Below, in pieces: positions 13,080-23,556 of a stretch of DNA of 64,000 nt. The notes beneath the pieces were generated by a model. The model was given only the letters and a program-made list of their open reading frames with translations, did not search any database and was not told the origin of the DNA. Numbering within the stretch: the stretch's first letter is position 1; the number at the start of each line of letters is the position of its first letter. This DNA is from Sphingomonas panacis (GTDB lineage: Bacteria; Pseudomonadota; Alphaproteobacteria; Sphingomonadales; Sphingomonadaceae), in contig NZ_CP014168.1 in the NCBI RefSeq assembly GCF_001717955.1, positions 1,712,001-1,776,000 on the forward strand, in the 5' to 3' direction. Both the position numbers and the translations under genes were made by a program.

Positions 13080-13161
13080 CGTCATGCCAGCGAAACCTGG
13101 CACCTTTCGAGGCGAGGGCGCGCGCATGCCGCGAGAGACCCCAGCGTTCGCTGGGGTGACG
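13080..13161. repeat. Dispersed inverted repeat, family B copy
   Basis: Begins CGTCATGCCAGCG and ends CGCTGGGGTGACG, with imperfect complementary arms and an internal CGCGAGAGACCCCAGCG. Closely similar to the copy inside allC at 20166-20246. Lies between the small membrane protein and the purine cluster. Confidence 0.75.
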
Positions 13162-13189
13162 AGGACGTTCCCTGCACGCTTTTTTGCAA

Positions 13190-13218
13190 CGATCCATGTT
13201 CGTCATTGTGTTGGATCG
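13190..13218. promoter_or_regulatory. Candidate operator before the purine cluster
   Basis: CGATCCA (13190-13196) and TGGATCG (13212-13218) form a 7-bp inverted repeat with a 15-bp spacer. It ends 25 bp before the first gene of the 16-kb cluster, in the only sizeable upstream gap. A regulator site here is inference; no regulator gene lies in the cluster. Confidence 0.3.
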
Positions 13219-13243
13219 GTAGGGCGGGAGCGGGCATAGCGCG

Positions 13244-14383
13244 ATGATGGGGCGCGCGTTCAAGCTGGTACTTTCGATCGACCGATTCCTGCTGCTGCTG
13301 ATCGCGGTGGTGGTGGGCGCGTCGCTGTTGCCGGTGCGCGGGGTGGCCGCGGGCTGGGTCGATCTCGCCGCCGATCTCGCCATAGCCTTGCTGTTCTTCC
13401 TGCACGGCGCCAAATTGTCGCGCGCGGCGATCGTCCAGGGCATCGGCAACCTCAAGCTGCACGCGCTGGTGCTCGCATCGACCTATCTGCTGTTTCCTTT
13501 GCTCGGGCTGGCGCTGGTCGCGCTGCTGCACGGCTGGGGCAATCCGCTGCTGCTGTCGGGGCTGCTGTTCCTGACGTTGCTGCCCTCGACGGTGCAATCC
13601 TCGATCGCCTTTACGGCGATCGCGCGCGGCGATGTCGCGGCGGCGGTGTGCAGCGCGTCGCTGTCCAATCTGCTCGGCATCTTCGTGACGCCGCTGCTGG
13701 TCGTGCTGTTCATGCGGGCCGATGGCAACGGCGCGGTGTCGTCCTGGCATTCGATCTGGACGATCGCGGTGCAATTGCTGCTGCCCTTCGTCGCCGGGCA
13801 TCTGCTGCGCCCGGTGATCGGCGGCTTCGTCGATCGCAACAAGAAGATCCTCCAGCCGGTCGATCGTGGCTCGATCCTGCTCGTCGTCTATTCGGCGTTC
13901 AGCGCGGCGGTGGTGAACGGCATCTGGACTCAGGTGAACGTCGCCGATCTCGCCGGGCTGCTCGGCCTGAGCGCGGTGCTGCTGGCGGCGGTGATGGGGG
14001 TGAACGTGCTGACCGCGCGGCTCGCCGGTCTGTCGCGCGAGGATTTCATCGTGCTGCTGTTCTGCGGATCGAAGAAGAGCCTTGCCTCGGGCGTGCCGAT
14101 GGCGGGGGCGCTGTTCGCGCCGGCGCACGTCGGGCTGATGGTGCTGCCGCTGATGATCTTCCACCAGTTGCAATTGTTCGTCTGCGCGGCGCTGGCGGGT
14201 CGCTTCCGCAGCGTGGCCGACGCGCGCGCCGCGGCAGCGGCGATCCCGCGCACCGAGGCCGAGATCGCCGCCGCGGCGAAGGCGGCCGGCGTGCCGGTTC
14301 CCGAGGCATGTCTGCCGGGCGTGACCGCCAACCTCGCGCTGCTCGAACGGCATGCGGCGACGCTGCGGGGCACGCCGCAATGA
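13244..14383 (+). CDS. BASS-family (bile acid:Na+ symporter-like) transporter with AtzG/HpxX-like tail
   Basis: A 379-residue membrane protein of the YfeH-like bile acid:sodium symporter family, with about ten hydrophobic helices through residue 310. Family motifs include LLPSTVQSSIAFTAIARGDV and LLFCGSKKSLASGVPMA. YfeH-type proteins are about 330 residues. The extra C-terminus (about 334-379: RTEAEIAAAAKAAGVPV, then PGVTANLALLERHAATL) resembles DUF4089, the fold of AtzG/HpxX, which is the small obligate partner of AtzE-type amidases. The next gene is an AtzE-type amidase whose ATG overlaps this stop. A fusion of transporter and amidase-partner domain is my inference. The transport substrate may be an anion of ureide breakdown. 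Confidence 0.85.
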   Translation: MMGRAFKLVLSIDRFLLLLIAVVVGASLLPVRGVAAGWVDLAADLAIALLFFLHGAKLSRAAIVQGIGNLKLHALVLASTYLLFPLLGLALVALLHGWGNPLLLSGLLFLTLLPSTVQSSIAFTAIARGDVAAAVCSASLSNLLGIFVTPLLVVLFMRADGNGAVSSWHSIWTIAVQLLLPFVAGHLLRPVIGGFVDRNKKILQPVDRGSILLVVYSAFSAAVVNGIWTQVNVADLAGLLGLSAVLLAAVMGVNVLTARLAGLSREDFIVLLFCGSKKSLASGVPMAGALFAPAHVGLMVLPLMIFHQLQLFVCAALAGRFRSVADARAAAAAIPRTEAEIAAAAKAAGVPVPEACLPGVTANLALLERHAATLRGTPQ

Positions 14384-15711
14384 GGCGGGCGACCGAGATC
14401 GCCGCCGATGTCCGCGCCGGGCGCGTCACCGCGTCGGCGATCGTCGAGGCGTGCCTTGCCGCGCTCGCGCAGGACGACTTGGTCGCCGTCACCCGCATCC
14501 TCGCCGATCGCGCGCGGGCCGAGGCGGCGGCGGTGGATGCGCAGATCGCCGCCGGGCGCGATCCGGGGCCGCTCGCTGGCGTGCCGTATGGCGTCAAGGA
14601 TCTGTTCGACGTCGCCGGGCTGTCGACCACCGCCGGCTCGGCGCTTTACGCCGATGCCGCGCCGGCGCGCGCCGATGCCGAGGCGATCCGCCGGTTGCGA
14701 GACGCCGGCGCGGTGCTGGTCGCGACGCTCAACATGGACGAATTCGCCTACGGCTTCGCGACCATCAACGCGGCCTATGGCACCACGCGCAACCCGCACG
14801 ATCCGGCACGGCTGGCGGGCGGCTCGTCGGGTGGATCGGCGGCGGTGGTCGCGGCCGGGCTGCTGCCGTTCGCGCTCGGATCGGACACCAACGGCTCGAT
14901 CCGCGTCCCCGCCAGCCTGACCGGCGTGTACGGCATCAAGGCCACGCACGACGCGGTGCCGATGGCGGGCGTGTTCCCGTTCGCAAAGAGCTTCGACGAT
15001 ATCGGCCCGTTCACCGTCTCGGTCGCCGATATGCGGCTGGTGTGGGATGTGCTGAGCGGCACCACCGCCGAGCCGACCGAGCAACCGTTGCGCGTCGCAT
15101 TGCTCGGCGGGCGGTTCCGCGAGAATGTCGATCCCGATCAGCTCGCCGCGATGGCCGAGATCGCGCCCGACGCCCCGGTCATCGAACTCCCCGACATCGC
15201 CCGCGCCCGCTCGGCGGCATTCGTCATCACCGCATATGAGGGGGGCAAGCTTCACCGCGCCGCGCTCGCCGAACAGCCGATGGCGTTCGATCCGCAAGTC
15301 CGCGACCGGCTGATCGCGGGCGCGCTGCTCCCGCACGCGCTGTATGACGAAGCACAGGCGTTTCGCGCCGCCTTCAAGCAGCGCATCGCCGATCTGATCG
15401 CGCCCTATGACGTGCTGCTCGCGCCCGCCACGCCGTGCGTCGCGCCGCTGATCGCCGATCCGCGCATCACGATCGACGGCGCGCTCAGCCCGGCGCGCGC
15501 CGATCTCGGCATTCACAGCCAGCCGGTCAGCTTCCTCGGCCTTCCGTCGCTGGCGATGCCGCTCGCGCGGCCGGGGCGGTTGCCGCTGGGGTTGCAGGCG
15601 ATCGGCCACGCCGGCACCGAGCGGACGCTGTTCCGCTTCGCCGCGCGGCTGGAAGGACAAGGGGTGGTCGGCGTTTCGCCGGCGGGGGCGTTGCAGGGGG
15701 ACATGGCATGA
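14380..15711 (+). CDS. AtzE/HpxY-type amidase
   Basis: A 443-residue amidase-signature enzyme with the Ser-cisSer-Lys triad: Lys73 (PYGVKDLFDV), Ser149 (GGSSGGSAA) and Ser173 (SDTNGSIRVPAS). The 24-residue spacing between the serines is typical. The DTNGSIR variant matches AtzE, the 1-carboxybiuret hydrolase, and HpxY of ureide clusters rather than GatA. With HpxZ and HpxW nearby, it probably acts on oxalurate or a related carbamoylated acid. AtzE-type enzymes need the small AtzG partner, and no free atzG is present, but the preceding transporter ends in a similar sequence. Confidence 0.85.
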   Translation: MRRATEIAADVRAGRVTASAIVEACLAALAQDDLVAVTRILADRARAEAAAVDAQIAAGRDPGPLAGVPYGVKDLFDVAGLSTTAGSALYADAAPARADAEAIRRLRDAGAVLVATLNMDEFAYGFATINAAYGTTRNPHDPARLAGGSSGGSAAVVAAGLLPFALGSDTNGSIRVPASLTGVYGIKATHDAVPMAGVFPFAKSFDDIGPFTVSVADMRLVWDVLSGTTAEPTEQPLRVALLGGRFRENVDPDQLAAMAEIAPDAPVIELPDIARARSAAFVITAYEGGKLHRAALAEQPMAFDPQVRDRLIAGALLPHALYDEAQAFRAAFKQRIADLIAPYDVLLAPATPCVAPLIADPRITIDGALSPARADLGIHSQPVSFLGLPSLAMPLARPGRLPLGLQAIGHAGTERTLFRFAARLEGQGVVGVSPAGALQGDMA

Positions 15712-17045
15712 CGGACGAACAGGCGGCACCGCCGGGGCTGCTGGAGCGATATTTCGGCCTCGCCCGGCGCGGCACGACCGTGCGCACCGAAGTGCTGGCC
15801 GGCGCCACCACCTTCCTGACGATGGCCTATATCGTGCTGGTCAATCCCGCGATCCTCGGCCTCGCCGGCATGCCGGTCGCCGCGGTCGCGGCGGCGACCT
15901 GCTTCGCCGCCGCCTTCGCCTCGATCCTGATGGGGCTGGTCGCGAACACCCCGCTCGGCCTCGCACCGGGCATGGGGCTCAACGCCTATTTCAGCTTCAC
16001 CGTCGTCCAGCAGATGCACGTGCCCTGGCCGGTCGCGCTCGGCTGCGTGTTCATCTCGGGCATCTGCTTTCTGGTCCTGACGCTGACCGGCGTGCGCCAG
16101 TTGATCGTCGCGGTGATCCCGACCTATCTGTTCGCCGCCGTCGCGGGCGGCATCGGGCTGTTCATCGGCTTCATCGGGCTGAAGGATGCCGGCATCGTCG
16201 TCGCCAACCCGGCGACCTTCGTCGCGCTCGGCAATCTGCGCGAGCCGGCTGCGGCGGTGGCGCTGTTCGGGCTGCTGCTGATCGGCGCGCTCAGCGTGTG
16301 GGGCGTGCGCGGCGCGATGCTGATCGGCATCGTCGGCACGACGATCGTCGGCTGGCTGGCCGGGCTGGTGATCTTCAAGCCCGAACCGTACAGCCTCGCC
16401 GCGCTGACCGGCACGGCGTTCAAGCTCGATCTGGCCGGCGTGTTCAAGCTGTCGGGCGGCGTGTTCGAGATCGTCTTCGTGTTCCTGTTCGTCGATCTGT
16501 TCGACAATATCGGCACGCTCGTCGCCGTCACCAAGCGCGCCGGGCTGATGGACGCCGCCGGGCGAATCCCCGGCCTCAACCGTATCCTCATCGCCGATGC
16601 GACCGCGACGATCGTCGGATCGATGGCGGGCACCAGCACGGTCACGTCCTACGTCGAAAGCGCAGCGGGCGTGCAGGCGGGCGGGCGCACCGGGCTGACC
16701 GCGGTCGTCACCGGGCTGCTGTTCTTCGCGACGATGTTCGTCGCGCCGTATGCGCAGATCGTGCCGCTGGCGGCGACCGCGCCCGCGCTCATCATCGTCG
16801 GCGGGCTGATGCTGCTGCCGCTGACCGAGGTCGAGTGGGAAGACCCGCTCTCGGCGATCCCCGCCTTCCTCACGGTCGCGATGATCCCGCTGACCTTCTC
16901 GATCGCCAACGGCCTCGCCTTCGGCATCACCGCGCACGCCGCGCTCAAGCTGCTGCGCGGCACGATCACGCGGGGCGACTGGTTCCTGCTGGTGCTCGCG
17001 GCCCTGTTCGTGGTGCGCTTCGTGTGGATGAGCGCGGGGGCATGA
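15708..17045 (+). CDS. NCS2-family purine permease (AzgA type)
   Basis: A 445-residue polytopic membrane protein beginning with the AzgA-like LLERYFGLARRGTTVRTEVL and containing MAYIVLVNPAIL, APGMGLNAYFSFTVV and a membrane Glu/Asp-rich segment (FLFVDLFDNIGTLVAV), followed by GTSTVTSYVESAAG. This is the hypoxanthine/guanine/adenine proton symporter branch of NCS2. It would bring purine bases into the cytoplasm for the deaminases encoded downstream. ATG overlaps the amidase stop. Confidence 0.93.
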   Translation: MTDEQAAPPGLLERYFGLARRGTTVRTEVLAGATTFLTMAYIVLVNPAILGLAGMPVAAVAAATCFAAAFASILMGLVANTPLGLAPGMGLNAYFSFTVVQQMHVPWPVALGCVFISGICFLVLTLTGVRQLIVAVIPTYLFAAVAGGIGLFIGFIGLKDAGIVVANPATFVALGNLREPAAAVALFGLLLIGALSVWGVRGAMLIGIVGTTIVGWLAGLVIFKPEPYSLAALTGTAFKLDLAGVFKLSGGVFEIVFVFLFVDLFDNIGTLVAVTKRAGLMDAAGRIPGLNRILIADATATIVGSMAGTSTVTSYVESAAGVQAGGRTGLTAVVTGLLFFATMFVAPYAQIVPLAATAPALIIVGGLMLLPLTEVEWEDPLSAIPAFLTVAMIPLTFSIANGLAFGITAHAALKLLRGTITRGDWFLLVLAALFVVRFVWMSAGA

Positions 17046-17977
17046 GGCGCGCCATCCTGGCCTTGCTGCTGCTCGCCGCGACACCGGCGGCCGCCGAGAC
17101 GATCGACCGCACCCCGCGCACCGTCGTGATGACCGCGTTCCCGCCGGAATTCGCCGCGTTGGTGTCCTCGGTGAAGGCGCCGAAGCGATACACGCGCAAC
17201 GGCCTCACCTTCGTCGCCGGTACGATCGCGGGCAAGCCGGTGCTGCTGATGCAGAGCGGCGTGTCGATGGTGAACGCGGCGATGAACACGCAATTGGTGC
17301 TCGATCGCTTCACCGTCAAACGCATCGTGTTTTCGGGAATCGCGGGCGGGGTCGATCCCGGCCTCACCATCGGCGATGTCGTGGTGCCGCAGGATTGGGC
17401 GCAATATCTGGAGGTGTCGTTCGCGCGCAAGACGGCGGACGGCTGGGTGGCGCCCGAGGCGGTCGACAAGGAGGCGCCCGCGCCGTTCGGCATGATGTTC
17501 CCGCGCGGCGTGCGGCTCGGCAACGCGGCCGAGCCGGTGCGGCGCCATTATACGATCGGTGTCGATCCCAAGCTGCTCGCGCTCGCCCGCACCGTTGCCG
17601 GAACGGCGACATTGCGCCGCTGCCTCGCCAGGCCGCTCGCTGCCGCCACGCACGAGGCGATGGCGGCATCGCCGTGTCTCGCCCATCAACCCAAGGTGGT
17701 GGTGGGCGGCACCGGCGTCAGCGCGGGCGTGTTCGCCGACAATGCCGAGTTCCGCGACTATCTCTCCGCCGCCTACAAGGCGCGCGTGCTCGACATGGAG
17801 AGCGCCGCCGTCGCGCAGGTCGCCTATGCCAACCGCACGCCGGTGATCGTGTTCCGCAGCCTCTCCGATCTTGCCGGCGGCGATGCCGGCGCGAACCAGA
17901 TGAACACCTTCATGGCGCTCGCCTCCGTCAATTCCGCCGATGTCGTCCGCGCCTTCGTCGCGGCGCTGCCGGATTGA
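17042..17977 (+). CDS. Secreted purine nucleosidase/phosphorylase-like protein
   Basis: A 311-residue protein with a signal peptide (MRRAILALLLLAATPAAAE) and the nucleoside phosphorylase superfamily fold: VVMTAFPPEFAAL, FSGIAGGVDPGLTIGDVVVP, GTGVSAG and VLDMESAAVAQVAY. The DMES motif is the ribose-binding site of the MTA/SAH nucleosidase branch. Export means it would release bases from nucleosides in the periplasm, ready for the NCS2 permease. Hydrolysis rather than phosphorolysis is inferred from the MTAN-like motifs. Confidence 0.85.
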   Translation: MRRAILALLLLAATPAAAETIDRTPRTVVMTAFPPEFAALVSSVKAPKRYTRNGLTFVAGTIAGKPVLLMQSGVSMVNAAMNTQLVLDRFTVKRIVFSGIAGGVDPGLTIGDVVVPQDWAQYLEVSFARKTADGWVAPEAVDKEAPAPFGMMFPRGVRLGNAAEPVRRHYTIGVDPKLLALARTVAGTATLRRCLARPLAAATHEAMAASPCLAHQPKVVVGGTGVSAGVFADNAEFRDYLSAAYKARVLDMESAAVAQVAYANRTPVIVFRSLSDLAGGDAGANQMNTFMALASVNSADVVRAFVAALPD

Positions 17978-19563
17978 GCGCGGTGCTGAACACCGTCACC
18001 GGCACACGCGGCATCGTCACCGCGCCGCACCACCTCGCATCGCAGGCGGGGCTGGCGGTGTTGCGCGACGGCGGCAACGCGGTCGAGGCGTGCGTCGCGG
18101 TCGCGGCATGTCTGGCGGTGGTGTATCCGCACATGACCGGGCTTGGCGGCGACGGTTTTTGGGTGATCGCCGAGCCCGATGGCCGGGGCCATTCGGTGCA
18201 TGGCTGCGGCGCGGCGGCGGCGCGGGCCGATCTGTCGCTGTATGCCGGACTGGCGGCGGTGCCGACGCGCGGGCCGCTCGCCGCGAACACGGTCGCGGGC
18301 ACCGTCTCGGGCTGGGCGGCGGCACTGGCGGCGAGCGGCGGCCTGCTCCCGCTCGACCGGCTGCTGCGCGACGCGATCGACCATGCCGAGGCCGGTGTCG
18401 CGGTGACGGCGGGCGGGGCCGCGATCGCCGCCGCCAAGGGCGCGGAGTTGCGCGTCCAGCCCGGCGCTTATGCCAAAGTGTTCGAACCAGCGGGTCGCCC
18501 GCTTGCCGAGGGCGACGTGCTGACGCAGCCCCTGCTCGCCGAAACGTTGCGCACGCTGGCGGCGGACGGCCTCGACGGCTTTTATCAGGGCGCGCTCGCC
18601 GACCGGATCGCCGACGATCTCGCCGCGCTCGGCAGCCCCGTCTCGCGCGCCGATCTGGCGGCGCACCGCGCGACCACACCCGCACCATTGTCGGTCGGGA
18701 TCGCCGGCGCGACGCTCTACAACAGCGCGCCGCCGACGCAGGGCATCGCCTCGCTGCTGATCCTCGCGCTGTTCGACCGCTTGCAGGCGGCCGAATGCGA
18801 CGGATTCGACCATGTCCACGGGCTGATCGAATCGACCAAGCAGGCGTTCCTGTGGCGCGACCGGCATTGCGGCGATCCCGCGTGGATGCACGGCGAGCCA
18901 CAGGCTTTGCTCGATGACGCGGAGGCACTCGATGCGATGGCGGCGCGGATCGATCCGCGCCGCGCGCTGCCATGGCCGCAACCGCCGCAATGGGGCGATA
19001 CCTGCTGGTTCGGCGCGGCGGATGCCGAGGGTCGCGTGGTGAGCTGCATCCAGTCCACCTATTTCGAATTCGGATCGGGGCTGGTGCTGCCGCAGACCGG
19101 CATCACCTGGCAGAATCGCGGCAGTTCGTTCCGGCTCGCCGAGACCGGCTGGAACGCGCTCAAGCCGGGCCGCAAGCCGTTCCACACGCTCAACCCGGCG
19201 CTCGCCCGCTTCGATGATGGCCGCGTGATGGCCTATGGCACGATGGGCGGCGAGGGCCAGCCGCAGACTCAGGCGGCGCTGTTCACGCGGTATGCGCGCT
19301 ATGGCGTGGACTTGCAGGACGCGATCAGCGCGCCGCGCTGGCTGCTCGGGCGCACCTGGGGCGAGCCATCGACCACGCTCAAGCTGGAGGATGGTTTCGA
19401 CGACACGCTCTACGCGGCGCTTGCGGTGGCCGGGCACCATGTCGAGCGCGTCGGGCCGCTGACCGCCATGATGGGGCACGCCGGCGCACTCGTCCGCCAC
19501 GCCGACGGCGCTCTGGAGGGCGCGACCGATCCGCGCAGCGACGGCGGGGTGGCGGCATGGTAG
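17974..19563 (+). CDS. hpxW: Gamma-glutamyltransferase-fold oxamate amidohydrolase (HpxW-like)
   Basis: A 529-residue GGT-family protein from the TTG start that overlaps the previous stop; GTG at 17983 is an alternative. Features are HHLASQAGLAVLRDGGNAVEA at the N-terminus and the autoprocessing Thr of WGDTCWFGAAD at about residue 343. No signal peptide is present, unlike periplasmic GGTs. HpxW of Klebsiella, a GGT-like oxamate amidohydrolase, acts in ureide use, and the presence of hpxZ and an hpxY-like amidase here supports the same role: oxamate to oxalate and ammonia. Overlaps allC by 7 bp. Confidence 0.8.
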   Translation: MSAVLNTVTGTRGIVTAPHHLASQAGLAVLRDGGNAVEACVAVAACLAVVYPHMTGLGGDGFWVIAEPDGRGHSVHGCGAAAARADLSLYAGLAAVPTRGPLAANTVAGTVSGWAAALAASGGLLPLDRLLRDAIDHAEAGVAVTAGGAAIAAAKGAELRVQPGAYAKVFEPAGRPLAEGDVLTQPLLAETLRTLAADGLDGFYQGALADRIADDLAALGSPVSRADLAAHRATTPAPLSVGIAGATLYNSAPPTQGIASLLILALFDRLQAAECDGFDHVHGLIESTKQAFLWRDRHCGDPAWMHGEPQALLDDAEALDAMAARIDPRRALPWPQPPQWGDTCWFGAADAEGRVVSCIQSTYFEFGSGLVLPQTGITWQNRGSSFRLAETGWNALKPGRKPFHTLNPALARFDDGRVMAYGTMGGEGQPQTQAALFTRYARYGVDLQDAISAPRWLLGRTWGEPSTTLKLEDGFDDTLYAALAVAGHHVERVGPLTAMMGHAGALVRHADGALEGATDPRSDGGVAAW

Positions 19564-20963
19564 GCGGCGCCCGCGCGGTGGCGCGCTGCGACGCGCTGGG
19601 CGTGGCGCCGTACAGCGACATGGCGGGCGGGCTGTATCGCGGCTATCTGACGCCCGCCTATGTCGCCGCACAGGACGCGCTTGCCGGCTGGATGGCGGAA
19701 GCGGGCATGGCGGTGCGCCGCGACCCCGCCGCCAATCTGATCGGCCGCTATGAGGGCGAAGACGCGCAGGCGCCCGCTTTGCTGATCGGCAGCCATCTCG
19801 ACAGCGTGCGCGATGGCGGGCGCTATGATGGGCCGCTCGGCATCATGCTCGGCGTCGAGGCGGTCGCTGCGCTCAACGCGGCGGGGCGGCGGATGCGCTT
19901 CCCGATCGAGGTGATCGCGTTCGGCGACGAGGAAGGCTCGCGCTTCCCCGCCGCGATGCTGACCAGCCGTGCGGTGGCGGGAACACTGGACGCGGCTGCG
20001 CTGGAGATGGCGGACGGCGAGGGGGTTACGCTGGAAAACGCCCTAGCCACCCTCCCGCCGTTCGTCCTGAGCGAAGTCGAAGGACGTGCCGCAAACGCCA
20101 CGTCCGGGGCACGTGCTTCGACTTCGCTCAGCACGAACGGAGAAGAGAGTACCGCCCGCCACCTTCGTCACCCCAGCGAAAGCGGGGGTCTTCCGGGGGA
20201 GGGCGCGCCAGAGCCGCGCGAGACCCCAGCGTCCGCTGGGGTGACGGACTTTGCAAAGGCGCGCATCCTCGCCGCGCTCGCCTATCTCGAAACGCATATC
20301 GAGCAAGGCCCGGTCCTCGAAGCCGAAGGCCGCGCGGTCGGCACCGTCACCGGCATCGCCGCGCAACTGCGCTTCCAGGCGAGCGTCATCGGCATCGCCG
20401 GCCATGCCGGCACAGCGTCGATGCCGCTGCGCCGCGACGCGCTCGCCGGCGCGGCCGAGATGCTGCTCGCGATCGAGACCATCGCCCGCCGCGACGTGTC
20501 GGATCTGGTCGCCACCGTGGGCAAGATCGCGGCGCTGCCCGGCGCCGCCAACGTCATTCCCGGCGAGGTGCGCTTCACCATCGACATCCGCTCTGGCGAC
20601 GTGGCGCGGCGGGACCGCGCGGCGGAGGACATTCTCGATGCGATCGCCGCCATCGCCGACGCGCGCGGCCTCGATTTCGATGTCGAACATATCCACGATC
20701 TCCCCGCCAGCCCGTGCGATCCCGCGCTGATGGACCTGCTCGATGCGGCCACCGCCGCCGCCGGCCAGCCGATCCGCCGGCTCGTCTCGGGCGCGGGGCA
20801 TGACGCGATGGTGATGGCGGCGCTCTGCCCGACCGCGATGCTGTTCGTGCGCTGCAAGGGCGGTATCAGCCACAACCCCGCCGAGCATGTCGACCCCGCC
20901 GACGCCGAGATCGCGTTGCAGGTCATGCTCGGCTTCATCGACCGACTTGGAGATGCCTCGTGA
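19557..20963 (+). CDS. allC: Allantoate amidohydrolase (M20 family) with in-frame repeat insertion
   Basis: A 468-residue zinc amidohydrolase of the AllC/hydantoinase-carbamoylase group. Metal and substrate residues are visible in GSHLDSV, RYDGPLG, FGDEEGSRFP, ETHIEQGP and ISHNPAEH. It would convert allantoate to ureidoglycine, carbon dioxide and ammonia. The family is about 410 residues. The extra 60 or so (about residues 167-230) are encoded by two dispersed repeats at 20058-20140 and 20166-20246, giving FVLSEVEGRAA and similar low-complexity sequence between the EEG and ETHIEQG segments. The frame is kept, so the protein is probably made with a surface loop. Confidence 0.88.
   Translation: MVGGARAVARCDALGVAPYSDMAGGLYRGYLTPAYVAAQDALAGWMAEAGMAVRRDPAANLIGRYEGEDAQAPALLIGSHLDSVRDGGRYDGPLGIMLGVEAVAALNAAGRRMRFPIEVIAFGDEEGSRFPAAMLTSRAVAGTLDAAALEMADGEGVTLENALATLPPFVLSEVEGRAANATSGARASTSLSTNGEESTARHLRHPSESGGLPGEGAPEPRETPASAGVTDFAKARILAALAYLETHIEQGPVLEAEGRAVGTVTGIAAQLRFQASVIGIAGHAGTASMPLRRDALAGAAEMLLAIETIARRDVSDLVATVGKIAALPGAANVIPGEVRFTIDIRSGDVARRDRAAEDILDAIAAIADARGLDFDVEHIHDLPASPCDPALMDLLDAATAAAGQPIRRLVSGAGHDAMVMAALCPTAMLFVRCKGGISHNPAEHVDPADAEIALQVMLGFIDRLGDAS
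20058..20140. repeat. Family A inverted repeat inside allC
   Basis: Left arm CCGTTCGTCCTGAGCGAAGT, right arm ending GCTCAGCACGAACGG, the same element found between genes at 37694, 45110 and elsewhere. Here it lies wholly within the allC reading frame without a stop codon. Confidence 0.85.
20166..20246. repeat. Family B inverted repeat inside allC
   Basis: Begins CGTCACCCCAGC and ends GCTGGGGTGACG (12-bp complementary ends). Closely similar to 13080-13161. Twenty-five bases after the family A copy and also in frame with allC. Confidence 0.85.
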
Positions 20964-22195
20964 GCCTAGACCCCCTTCTGTTCGGCGAGATTGATCCGCC
21001 GCAGCGGCTGCTGATGGGGCCGGGGCCGGTCAACGCACACCCGCGCGTGCTGCGCGCGATGTCGGCGGATCTGCTCGGCCAGTTCGATCCCGAGATGACC
21101 GGCTATATGAACCAGGTGGTGGCGCTCTATCGCCCGATCTTCGGCACCGCGAACCGCTGGACGATGCTGATCGACGGCACCGCGCGCGCCGCGATCGAGG
21201 CTGCGTTGGTCAGCCTCGTCGCGCCGGGCGAGACCGTGCTGGTGGTCAATTTCGGCCGCTTCGGGCTGCTGCTCACCGAGATTCTCGGCCGCATCGGTGC
21301 GCGCATCGAAAGCATCGAGGCGCCTTGGGGCGAGACGGTGCCGCTCGATGCGATCGCCGCCGCGATCGCGCGCACTGCGCCGAAAGTCGTCGCCACCATC
21401 CACGGCGACACTTCGACGACGATGGCGCAGCCGCTCGATGGTCTCGGCGATCTTTGCCACGCGGCGGGCGCGTTGCTCTATGTCGATGCCACCGCGACGC
21501 TCGGCGGGATGGAGATCGCCGCCGATCGCTGGGGCGCGGACATCGTCACCGGCGGTTTGCAGAAATGCCTTGGCGGCCCGTCCGGCTCGGCGCCGATCAC
21601 GATTTCCGATGCCGCCGCCGAGCATATCTTCACGCGCCGCCATACCGAGGCGGGCATCCGCACGGGCCGCACGGTCGATGGCAACGGCCCGCGCATCGGC
21701 TCGAACTATTTCGATCTCGCCATGATCATGGATTACTGGTCCGAAAAGCGCCTCAACCACCATACCGAGGCGACCTCGATGCTCTATGCGGCGCGTGAAT
21801 GCGCGCGTGTCGCGCTCGGCGAGGGGCTGGAGGCACGCTACGCCCGCCACGCCGCCGCCGGCCGCGCGGTGACGGCGGGGTTGCGCGCGATGGGGTTGAC
21901 CGTGTTCGGCGACGACCGCTTCCGCATGACCAACGTGACCGGCGTCTACATTCCCGAGGGCGTCGACGGCGAGCGGGTCCGCGCGGCGATGCGCGACCAT
22001 TTCGAGATCGAGATCGGCACCGCCTTCGGCCCGCTCGCCGGGCGGATCTGGCGGATCGGCGCGATGGGGTACAATGCGATGAAGCATAAGGTGCTGATTA
22101 CGCTTGGCGCACTTGAGGCGTGCCTGCGCGCGGAGGGGTTCAGCCTGCCGCCGGGCGAAGCGGTGAGCGCAGCGCTTGAGGCTTGGGAGGCGTGA
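20960..22195 (+). CDS. pucG: Ureidoglycine-glyoxylate aminotransferase (PucG-like)
   Basis: A 411-residue class V PLP aminotransferase of the alanine-glyoxylate/ureidoglycine-glyoxylate group. The N-terminal MGPGPVNAHPRVLRAM, the PLP aspartate in YVDATATLGG, and the PLP Lys in GGLQKCLGGPSG (about Lys202) are present. After AllC, PucG transfers the amino group of ureidoglycine to glyoxylate, giving oxalurate and glycine. That product fits the downstream HpxZ/AtzE/HpxW functions. GTG start overlaps the allC stop. Confidence 0.87.
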   Translation: MSLDPLLFGEIDPPQRLLMGPGPVNAHPRVLRAMSADLLGQFDPEMTGYMNQVVALYRPIFGTANRWTMLIDGTARAAIEAALVSLVAPGETVLVVNFGRFGLLLTEILGRIGARIESIEAPWGETVPLDAIAAAIARTAPKVVATIHGDTSTTMAQPLDGLGDLCHAAGALLYVDATATLGGMEIAADRWGADIVTGGLQKCLGGPSGSAPITISDAAAEHIFTRRHTEAGIRTGRTVDGNGPRIGSNYFDLAMIMDYWSEKRLNHHTEATSMLYAARECARVALGEGLEARYARHAAAGRAVTAGLRAMGLTVFGDDRFRMTNVTGVYIPEGVDGERVRAAMRDHFEIEIGTAFGPLAGRIWRIGAMGYNAMKHKVLITLGALEACLRAEGFSLPPGEAVSAALEAWEA

Positions 22196-22272: not shown

Positions 22273-22295
22273 ATCCTTGCCTGGAGAGCGCGCGT

Positions 22296-23189
22296 ATGAT
22301 CACCCGTGACCTCACCGGATACGGCGCCACCCCGCCCGATCCGCGCTGGCCCGGCGGCGCGCGCGTGGCGGTGCAGTTCGTCGTCAATTACGAGGAAGGC
22401 GCCGAGAACAGCGTCCTCAACGGTGACGCCGGATCGGAGAAGTTCCTCTCCGAAATGGTCGGCGCGGGCAGCCATCCGGCGCGCGCGATGGCGATGGAGA
22501 GCCTTTACGAATATGGCAGCCGCGCCGGCTTCTGGCGGCTGCACCGGCTGTTCACGCAGCGCGATCTGCCCGTCACCGTGTTCGGCGTCGCCAAGGCGCT
22601 GGCGATGAACCCGCAAGCTGTCGAGGCGATGCTCGCCGCCGATTGGGAGATCGCCAGCCACGGTCTGCGCTGGATCGATTATCAGGGCGTGCCCGAAGCG
22701 ACCGAGCGCGCGCACATCGCCGAGGCGATCGCGCTGCACACGCGGCTCACCGGCAGCCGCCCGCTCGGGTGGTATCAGGGCCGCACCTCGCCCAACACCG
22801 CGCGGCTCGTCGTCGAGGAAGGCGGCTTCGTCTATGATGCCGACAGCTACGCCGACGATCTGCCCTATTACGACACCCGCTTCGGCGCGCCGCAACTGAT
22901 CGTGCCCTACACGCTCGACGTCAACGACATGAAGATCGTCGCCTTGAACGGCTTCACCGAGGGCGAGCAGTTCTTCCGCTATCTGCGCGACACGTTCGAC
23001 CAACTCCGTGAGGAGGGCGGGCGGATGATGTCGGTCGGCCTGCACGCGCGGATCGCCGGGCGGCCCGGCCGCGCGCGCGCGCTGGCGCGCTTCCTCGATC
23101 ACGTCATCGCGAGCGGCGACGCCTGGGTCGCGCGCCGCATCGACATCGCCCGTCACTGGCTGGAGGTTCACCCGTATGACCATCGATGA
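22296..23189 (+). CDS. puuE: Allantoinase PuuE (polysaccharide-deacetylase fold)
   Basis: A 297-residue protein starting MITRDLTGYGATPPDPRWPG, the conserved opening of PuuE allantoinases, with FVVNYEEGAENS, ASHGLRWIDYQ and GLHARIAGRPGR. PuuE is a cofactor-independent allantoinase unrelated to AllB and opens the ring of allantoin to allantoate. The ATG at 22296 follows a GGAGAG site after the palindrome. The 3' end overlaps hpxZ by 14 bp. Confidence 0.93.
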   Translation: MITRDLTGYGATPPDPRWPGGARVAVQFVVNYEEGAENSVLNGDAGSEKFLSEMVGAGSHPARAMAMESLYEYGSRAGFWRLHRLFTQRDLPVTVFGVAKALAMNPQAVEAMLAADWEIASHGLRWIDYQGVPEATERAHIAEAIALHTRLTGSRPLGWYQGRTSPNTARLVVEEGGFVYDADSYADDLPYYDTRFGAPQLIVPYTLDVNDMKIVALNGFTEGEQFFRYLRDTFDQLREEGGRMMSVGLHARIAGRPGRARALARFLDHVIASGDAWVARRIDIARHWLEVHPYDHR

Positions 23190-23556
23190 TCCCATTCTGC
23201 TCGCCGAAGTGACCGAAGCGTTTCAGGCGTATGAGCGCGCGCTGATGGCGGACGACGTGCCGGCGATGGATGCGCTGTTCCACGACGCGCCCACCACAAA
23301 CCGCTACGGCGTCGGTGAGGTGCTGTACGGCATCGACGCCATCCGCGCGTTCCGCAAAGGCCGTGGCGGCTCGCCGCAGCGCACGCTCGGCCGCGTTGCG
23401 ATCACCGTCTACGGCGACAGCTTCGCCACCGCCGACGCCGAGTTCTTCCGCGAGAACAGCGACCGGCGTGGCCGCCAGACTCAGGCGTGGGTCAAATTCG
23501 CCGATGGCTGGAAGGTCGTCTCGGCGCATGTCAGCCTGGAGGGGAGCACGCATTGA
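23176..23556 (+). CDS. hpxZ: Oxalurate catabolism protein HpxZ (AtzH-like, DUF3225)
   Basis: A 126-residue SnoaL/NTF2-like protein with VTEAFQAYERALMADDVPAM, LFHDAPTTNRYGVGEVLYG, and RKGRGGSPQRTL, matching HpxZ and AtzH. AtzH has been linked to AtzE-type amidase chemistry, which suits the AtzE homologue at 14380. The start overlaps puuE, and the stop overlaps the TTG of uraD. Confidence 0.85.
   Translation: MTIDDPILLAEVTEAFQAYERALMADDVPAMDALFHDAPTTNRYGVGEVLYGIDAIRAFRKGRGGSPQRTLGRVAITVYGDSFATADAEFFRENSDRRGRQTQAWVKFADGWKVVSAHVSLEGSTH

Follow-up and report, generated by a model that had tools for sequence, protein, structure and literature searches.

A predicted AtzG/HpxX subunit at the C-terminus of a BASS transporter encoded beside an AtzE-type amidase in Sphingomonas panacis

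Where does an AtzE-type amidase find its small partner when its operon shows no free atzG gene? In Pseudomonas sp. ADP, as described in PMC6219798, AtzG takes no part in catalysis; the two proteins assemble into an obligate heterotetramer, and AtzE is insoluble when AtzG is missing. In the 64,000-nucleotide stretch of Sphingomonas panacis DNA analysed here (the window), the gene before the amidase encodes a transporter with a C-terminal tail (Table 1), which raises the question of whether this tail stands in for AtzG and, if so, what the arrangement does to the enzyme.

The transporter part belongs to the BASS/SBF_like family, with PF13593 matched over the full domain and ten transmembrane helices in the predicted model, which Foldseek aligns with PDB entries 3zux (TMt 0.82) and 8oyg (TMt 0.83). 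The ten-helix fold is that of ASBT_NM (3zux), to which the window's protein adds a C-terminal enzyme-subunit domain. On the positive-inside rule applied to the model (16 Lys/Arg on one side of the transporter, 2 on the other), both termini, the tail included, are predicted to be cytoplasmic. The first-pass annotation had reported a tail of about 45 residues in excess of YfeH-type BASS proteins; the extension is real, but it is larger than claimed, with 57 residues past the SBF_like domain, of which 15 form a linker and about 42 the AtzG-like domain. The tail sequence quoted there, PGVTANLALLERHAAT, is present in the ORF, and the reported 4-bp overlap with the amidase gene is the ATGA at 14380-14383 common to both ORFs, which makes translational coupling probable. 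The amidase itself scores above the curated AtzE-family cut-offs (NF006631, 529.1 bits against 461; TIGR02715, 527.2 against 425.75), and among solved structures it is closest to 6c62_A (E 9.1e-99); the remaining amidase matches in the window's genome reach at most 41% identity.

Table 1. Features of the fusion gene and the operon that follows it (positions in the window)
Feature	Position	Strand	Basis or remark
Operator/promoter-like element, conserved	13181-13220	+	palindromic, before fusion gene
BASS transporter-AtzG fusion gene	13244-14383	+	379 aa ORF, stop 14381-14383
SBF_like (BASS) transporter domain, residues 13-322	13280-14209	+	PF13593, E 2.5e-95
Variable linker, residues 323-337	14210-14254	+	alignment; pN/pS 0.37-1.30 in five sister pairs
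AtzG (HpxX)-like domain, residues 338-379	14255-14380	+	PF13318 match, residues 341-378
AtzE/HpxY-type amidase	14380-15711	+	443 aa; ATG within stop overlap
NCS2-type purine permease	15708-17045	+	PF00860, E 1.4e-39; ATGA-overlapped with amidase
Phosphorylase-superfamily (nucleosidase/nucleoside phosphorylase-like) protein	17042-17977	+	PF01048, E 2e-39
Gamma-glutamyltranspeptidase-family protein	17977-19563 (start approximate)	+	PF01019, E 1.6e-117
Allantoate amidohydrolase (HpxK-like)	19557-20963	+	NF006775, 559.5 bits, cut-off 479
Class-V aminotransferase	20960-22195	+	PF00266, E 9.9e-16; no curated model above cut-off
Allantoinase PuuE	22293-23189 (start approximate)	+	TIGR03212, 506.1 bits, cut-off 424.6
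HpxZ/AtzH-like protein	23179-23541 (matched stretch)	+	PF11533, E 8.8e-49; NF033625, 151.5 bits, cut-off 135

Identity of the tail

The first-pass annotation had likened the tail to DUF4089, which we take to be the older name of PF13318 (AtzG-like). Scored as a single sequence, the tail stays below the PF13318 cut-off of 24 bits, with 16.1 bits inside the full fusion protein and 21.0 bits (E 4.4e-4), just under the cut-off, when the last 46 residues are scanned alone. Across the 18 fused proteins compared, 14 tails scanned singly match the model at E <= 0.01 (best 2.5e-7), as do 13 full-length sequences at E <= 0.1. Comparison of alignments gave far stronger results: the 18 fused tails (A1) align by hhalign with 28 distant free AtzGs (A2) at a probability of 98.8 (E 6e-17), and with 22 close free AtzGs (A4) at 99.7 (E 2.4e-26). 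Free rows L076, L089, L090 and L109 were omitted from A2 and A4, and L074, L075 and L077 additionally from A5. When a profile built from free AtzGs only was run against six frames of the window's 5.3-Mb genome (150 of 187 candidates scored), the tail was matched at E 1.3e-22 and the next match stood at 0.18. A separate atzG homologue elsewhere in this genome, which according to the earlier annotation would speak against its reading, was looked for in the same search, and none was found among the candidates scored. The six-frame search with the Pfam model returned no match, tail included, and is uninformative, its controls being positive in 0 of 14 genomes.

As far as sequence can tell, the profile-profile and own-genome results point decisively to the tail being a genuine AtzG/HpxX domain, and the proposed likeness is borne out despite the sub-cut-off Pfam match. 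Modest single-sequence scores would also be expected from a chance likeness of an Ala/Leu-rich helical tail, AtzG being Ala-rich as well, but such a coincidence is scarcely credible and is ruled out for practical purposes by the two hhalign E-values and by the way the free-AtzG profile singles out the tail in 5.3 Mb. It would also leave aside the position of the tail directly before AtzE, through the ATGA overlap, and the existence of a relative with unfused BASS, AtzG and AtzE.

The tail lacks the C-terminal arm of a typical AtzG (the last ~11 model positions), its match covering model positions 2-39 of 50. This arm is present in most distant free AtzGs and absent also from the free AtzGs of the same clade; its absence is a lineage trait and not a result of fusion, and we do not hold the arm necessary for AtzG membership. 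In the AtzG-AtzE system of Pseudomonas sp. ADP (1-carboxybiuret hydrolase, 6c62/6c6g), AtzG likewise directly precedes AtzE, but there it is a separate 66-residue chain, whereas in the window it forms the armless C-terminus of a transporter, and the setting is cyanuric acid in the one and purine/allantoin in the other.

Structural comparison of so short a piece gave little. A hairpin model of the tail (59 residues) yielded only Foldseek E-values of 2.5 or worse, with a ribosomal chain as the top row; the best Z in a structure comparison was 4.3, to N-terminal residues of the Rhodococcus amidase 3a1k, which is weak, as expected for 59 residues, and the model aligns with 6c62_C over 46 residues. 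Searching PDB sequences with profiles of the tail returned mostly ferredoxins (best E 0.023 and 0.046) and not one AtzG chain. The model is also weakly like GatC chains, and GatC-GatA of GatCAB, in which a small helical hairpin subunit serves an amidase-signature enzyme, would be a parallel; no GatB or tRNA role is implied for the window, and AtzG is the closer profile in a comparison that covered AtzG profiles only.

Distribution, origin and loss of the fusion

The fusion is rare and recurs in other sphingomonads, a survey of which the first-pass annotation had proposed. A transporter match is present in 47 of 61 genomes of the same genus and reaches residue 377 or beyond in three of them, the window's included, the others among the matches listed ending at residue 356 or earlier. 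In a sample of 397 genomes of the family (4 candidates scored per genome), at least five carry a fused match, followed in each case by the amidase; three more rows that reach residue 361-369 only by stop read-through were excluded from this count. At least 15 genomes of a 298-genome sample have a match at 1e-6 (21 candidates scored per genome). A tail-restricted protein search returned nine proteins, 374-384 aa long, each of which includes the transporter domain and one of which has PF13318 among its precomputed domains, and a plasmid collection held a full-length match in Sphingobium sp. V4 (residues 2-376, 62.4%). Where a host is named, it belongs to Sphingomonas, Sphingobium or Novosphingobium; one fused locus (L044) comes under an Actinobacteria record title, which probably reflects mislabelling of the assembly.

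We compared 83 AtzE-type loci, namely the best 80 of 225 confirmed loci from named genomes together with the window and two genus-mates. Classed by a 6-sequence seed profile at E <= 1e-3, the position directly before the amidase holds the fusion in 18 loci, a free AtzG in 54 (counting as free the re-split L096, in which the transporter is ended by a stop and AtzG restarts at an ATG one base later), and neither in 11. The last class is uncertain for eight Stenotrophomonas/Xanthomonas/Pseudoxanthomonas loci and for L110, because the amidase start was extrapolated there (the match begins at residue 28-34, and in L110 at residue 64), and it also includes L061, which scored 0.0022 and is AtzG-like by eye.

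A tree of 51 transporter domains, drawn from loci with a transporter match above 100 bits and 260 aa, unites the fused ones and L096 in one clade (support 100/100), and in a tree of 65 domains, from which rows L009, L011, L018 and L095 were omitted, this same set forms one clade together with the tail-less L151 (99/96). L151 (1381-2511) has neither an AtzG tail nor AtzE in its ~1.5-kb flanks, and its tail was apparently lost. In a clade neighbouring the fused transporters, L159 (1510-3952) has BASS, AtzG and AtzE in three separate genes with an ATGA overlap at each junction, and this is likely the state before fusion; the grouping of its clade with the fused clade has support of 89/72 only.

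On an amidase tree of 41 of the 83 loci (identity at least 55.5%, AtzG class assigned), 10 changes between the fused and the free state are required, and well-supported branches force six or more of them. The direction of these changes is not given by this tree, and gene transfer is possible, but since the fused transporter appears to have a single origin, most of them are presumably losses. Loss is shown more directly by scraps of transporter on two free AtzGs, that of L050 opening with a segment that resembles the first transmembrane helix and that of L040 with one that resembles the end of the last helix (0/300 shuffles as good in each case). No significant relic was found in 9 of the 11 free AtzGs tested by shuffling, at significance levels uncorrected for the 11 tests; among the candidates, the hydrophobic start of the L048 AtzG was dropped, 141/300 shuffles being as good. 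As a separate observation, in Novosphingobium sp. Leaf2 (L048, 5435-5731) and Sphingomonas sp. PsM26 (L050, 9345-10004) the open frame of the free AtzG has one hydrophobic N-terminal stretch (17-residue hydropathy 2.04 and 2.15), so that these two proteins may still be membrane-anchored via a single helix.

AtzG itself is retained throughout. Among 30 named close loci (amidase at least 64% identical to that of the window), AtzG precedes the amidase in all, fused in 15 and not fused in 15 (L096 included), and with the window and its two genus-mates the count becomes 33 of 33. The transporter is present in 16 of the 30, and none was found in the stretch covered for the other 14; for three of the close free loci (15 in all) this stretch takes in less than 6 kb before the amidase, and a transporter farther off would be missed. 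Tethering therefore cannot be essential. This constancy bears on whether the tail could be a vestigial AtzG domain without a function today, beside an amidase that works alone or with GatC. Its shortness, its missing arm and its 21.0 of 24 bits would suit a leftover, but we consider this very improbable: AtzG is kept at every close locus even without a transporter, Cys, Gly, Asn and Leu positions are invariant across the 18 fused tails, and pN/pS in five sister pairs is 0.17-0.40 for the tail, compared with 0.10-0.21 for the transporter and the higher linker values of Table 1, by which measure the tail is under purifying selection.

Upstream elements and linker

The 40-bp palindromic element before the fusion gene is shared with its relatives. 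Allowing at most 13 mismatches in 40, it is found in 32 of the 38 loci shown, that is, in 32 of the 33 close loci (L042 misses it); the limit was chosen by us, and in the control, one mononucleotide shuffle per locus, the best placements had 17-22 mismatches. In relatives it reads about GCAACGATC-N6-GATCATTGC, and in close sphingomonad loci it precedes either atzG or BASS-atzG. Its distance upstream of the amidase is 1200-1233 bp in loci with the transporter and 225-461 bp in those without. Because the element fronts both forms, the transporter module seems to come and go between a shared start region and AtzG. Its palindromic core has a single match within the window, and a genome-wide search returned 15 rows, all with 3 mismatches and with palindromic places listed per strand (control 0). 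The element may be where a regulator of the purine operon binds. Separately, a 30-base repeat with a hairpin-like core occurs at 13132-13161 before the fusion gene and, with 2 mismatches, at 20217-20246 inside the allantoate amidohydrolase gene (0/100 shuffles had two matches); as the family models match this enzyme in two stretches, it seems to have gained the repeat as an in-frame insertion.

The linker is where a real AtzG tail might escape from its transporter, either by release after synthesis or by additional production from an internal start, giving free AtzE-AtzG with no tether and leaving the fusion merely to equalise the amounts of transporter and amidase. We judge this unlikely, though it deserves more weight than a leftover tail. 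The linker is variable in sequence and selection, relatives keep AtzG without the transporter and probably use it untethered, and 11 of the 18 fused genes have some ATG, GTG or TTG in the linker (GTG in the window). These codons, however, are not conserved: seven genes have none, only two have ATG, no column is common to more than two genes, and a ribosome-binding-like pattern precedes only four of the listed codons, at differing places in four loci. One genome, L096, separated the two genes again, and it did so with a proper stop and ATG. Given that linker starts are not conserved, the fusion protein is most likely the only source of the tail.

The operon and a possible transporter-enzyme unit

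Past the amidase, the operon continues with the genes of Table 1 and, after HpxZ/AtzH, with guanine deaminase and then adenosine deaminase. We assume NCS2 to be the name of the PF00860 permease family, and from context and recall we take the gamma-glutamyltranspeptidase-family protein to be HpxW-like and the class-V aminotransferase to be probably a ureidoglycine-glyoxylate (HpxJ/PucG-type) enzyme. The whole looks like the HPX oxalurate set of purine breakdown, HpxZ included, and the one piece otherwise absent from it, HpxX/AtzG, is, judged by its sequence, the fusion tail, in keeping with the earlier remark that no free atzG is visible in the cluster. We further take ggt-atzG-atzE-atzH to correspond to HpxW-X-Y-Z.

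PMC6219798 describes ggt-atzG-atzE-atzH clusters in Enterobacteriaceae, accompanied by genes for a transaminase and an allantoate amidohydrolase; the gamma-glutamyltransferase-family, AtzG, AtzE, AtzH, transaminase and allantoate amidohydrolase components are common to the window's operon, which differs in having AtzG fused to BASS, an NCS2 permease and another gene order. PMC12625717 names HpxY in two ways, as oxalurate amidohydrolase in one passage and as oxamate carbamoyltransferase in the legend of a figure, and thus leaves the activity unsettled. BASS genes that are related but unfused are likewise found next to purine genes, namely adenosine deaminase (L154-L156) and NCS2 (L157), and in two Novosphingobium genomes (L067, 10001-12276; L109, 10001-12336) a BASS gene of another clade lies directly downstream of AtzE, with AtzG free upstream. 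Such unfused BASS genes, beside purine genes or right after the amidase, support a purine-related transport role.

Taken together, it is highly probable that the tail serves as the amidase's only AtzG and holds AtzE at the inner membrane face beside the transporter. Binding of AtzE by the tail, and with it attachment to the membrane, we infer from homology: if the tail binds as AtzG does, membrane docking of the amidase follows. The ten-helix BASS transporter would carry a cytoplasmic C-terminal AtzG/HpxX subunit, on which the downstream amidase, probably translationally coupled, would dock as on its obligate subunit, with perhaps two transporters per amidase dimer. At a guess, the transporter imports the substrate of the amidase, a ureido-carboxylate (for example oxalurate or a precursor), and passes it on to the enzyme; channelling of substrate from transporter to amidase is likewise a guess. 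As a tentative proposal, which we hold to be somewhat more doubtful than probable, this would amount to a transporter-enzyme unit in which the amidase, docked through AtzG at the cytoplasmic mouth, hydrolyses a purine-derived ureido-carboxylate on entry, and AtzG, once a free assembly subunit, would have become a domain for docking at the membrane.

To our knowledge, enzymes held at a transporter by a fused obligate subunit are rare, and a literature search of open-licence papers found no published description of an AtzG-transporter fusion. The bicarbonate transporter SbtA with SbtB (7egl) offers a related fold with a cytosolic partner, the comparison of mode being our own; SbtB, however, is a separate, unfused signalling protein, whereas the partner in the window would be a fused enzyme subunit.

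For the sphingomonads, these loci provide a natural series around one retained subunit, with transporter and AtzG encoded by separate overlapping genes, fused, re-split, or left with the transporter gone. The fusion would tie an uncharacterised BASS transporter to the oxalurate end of purine breakdown, and the fused AtzG/HpxX illustrates how genome annotation can miss this subunit.
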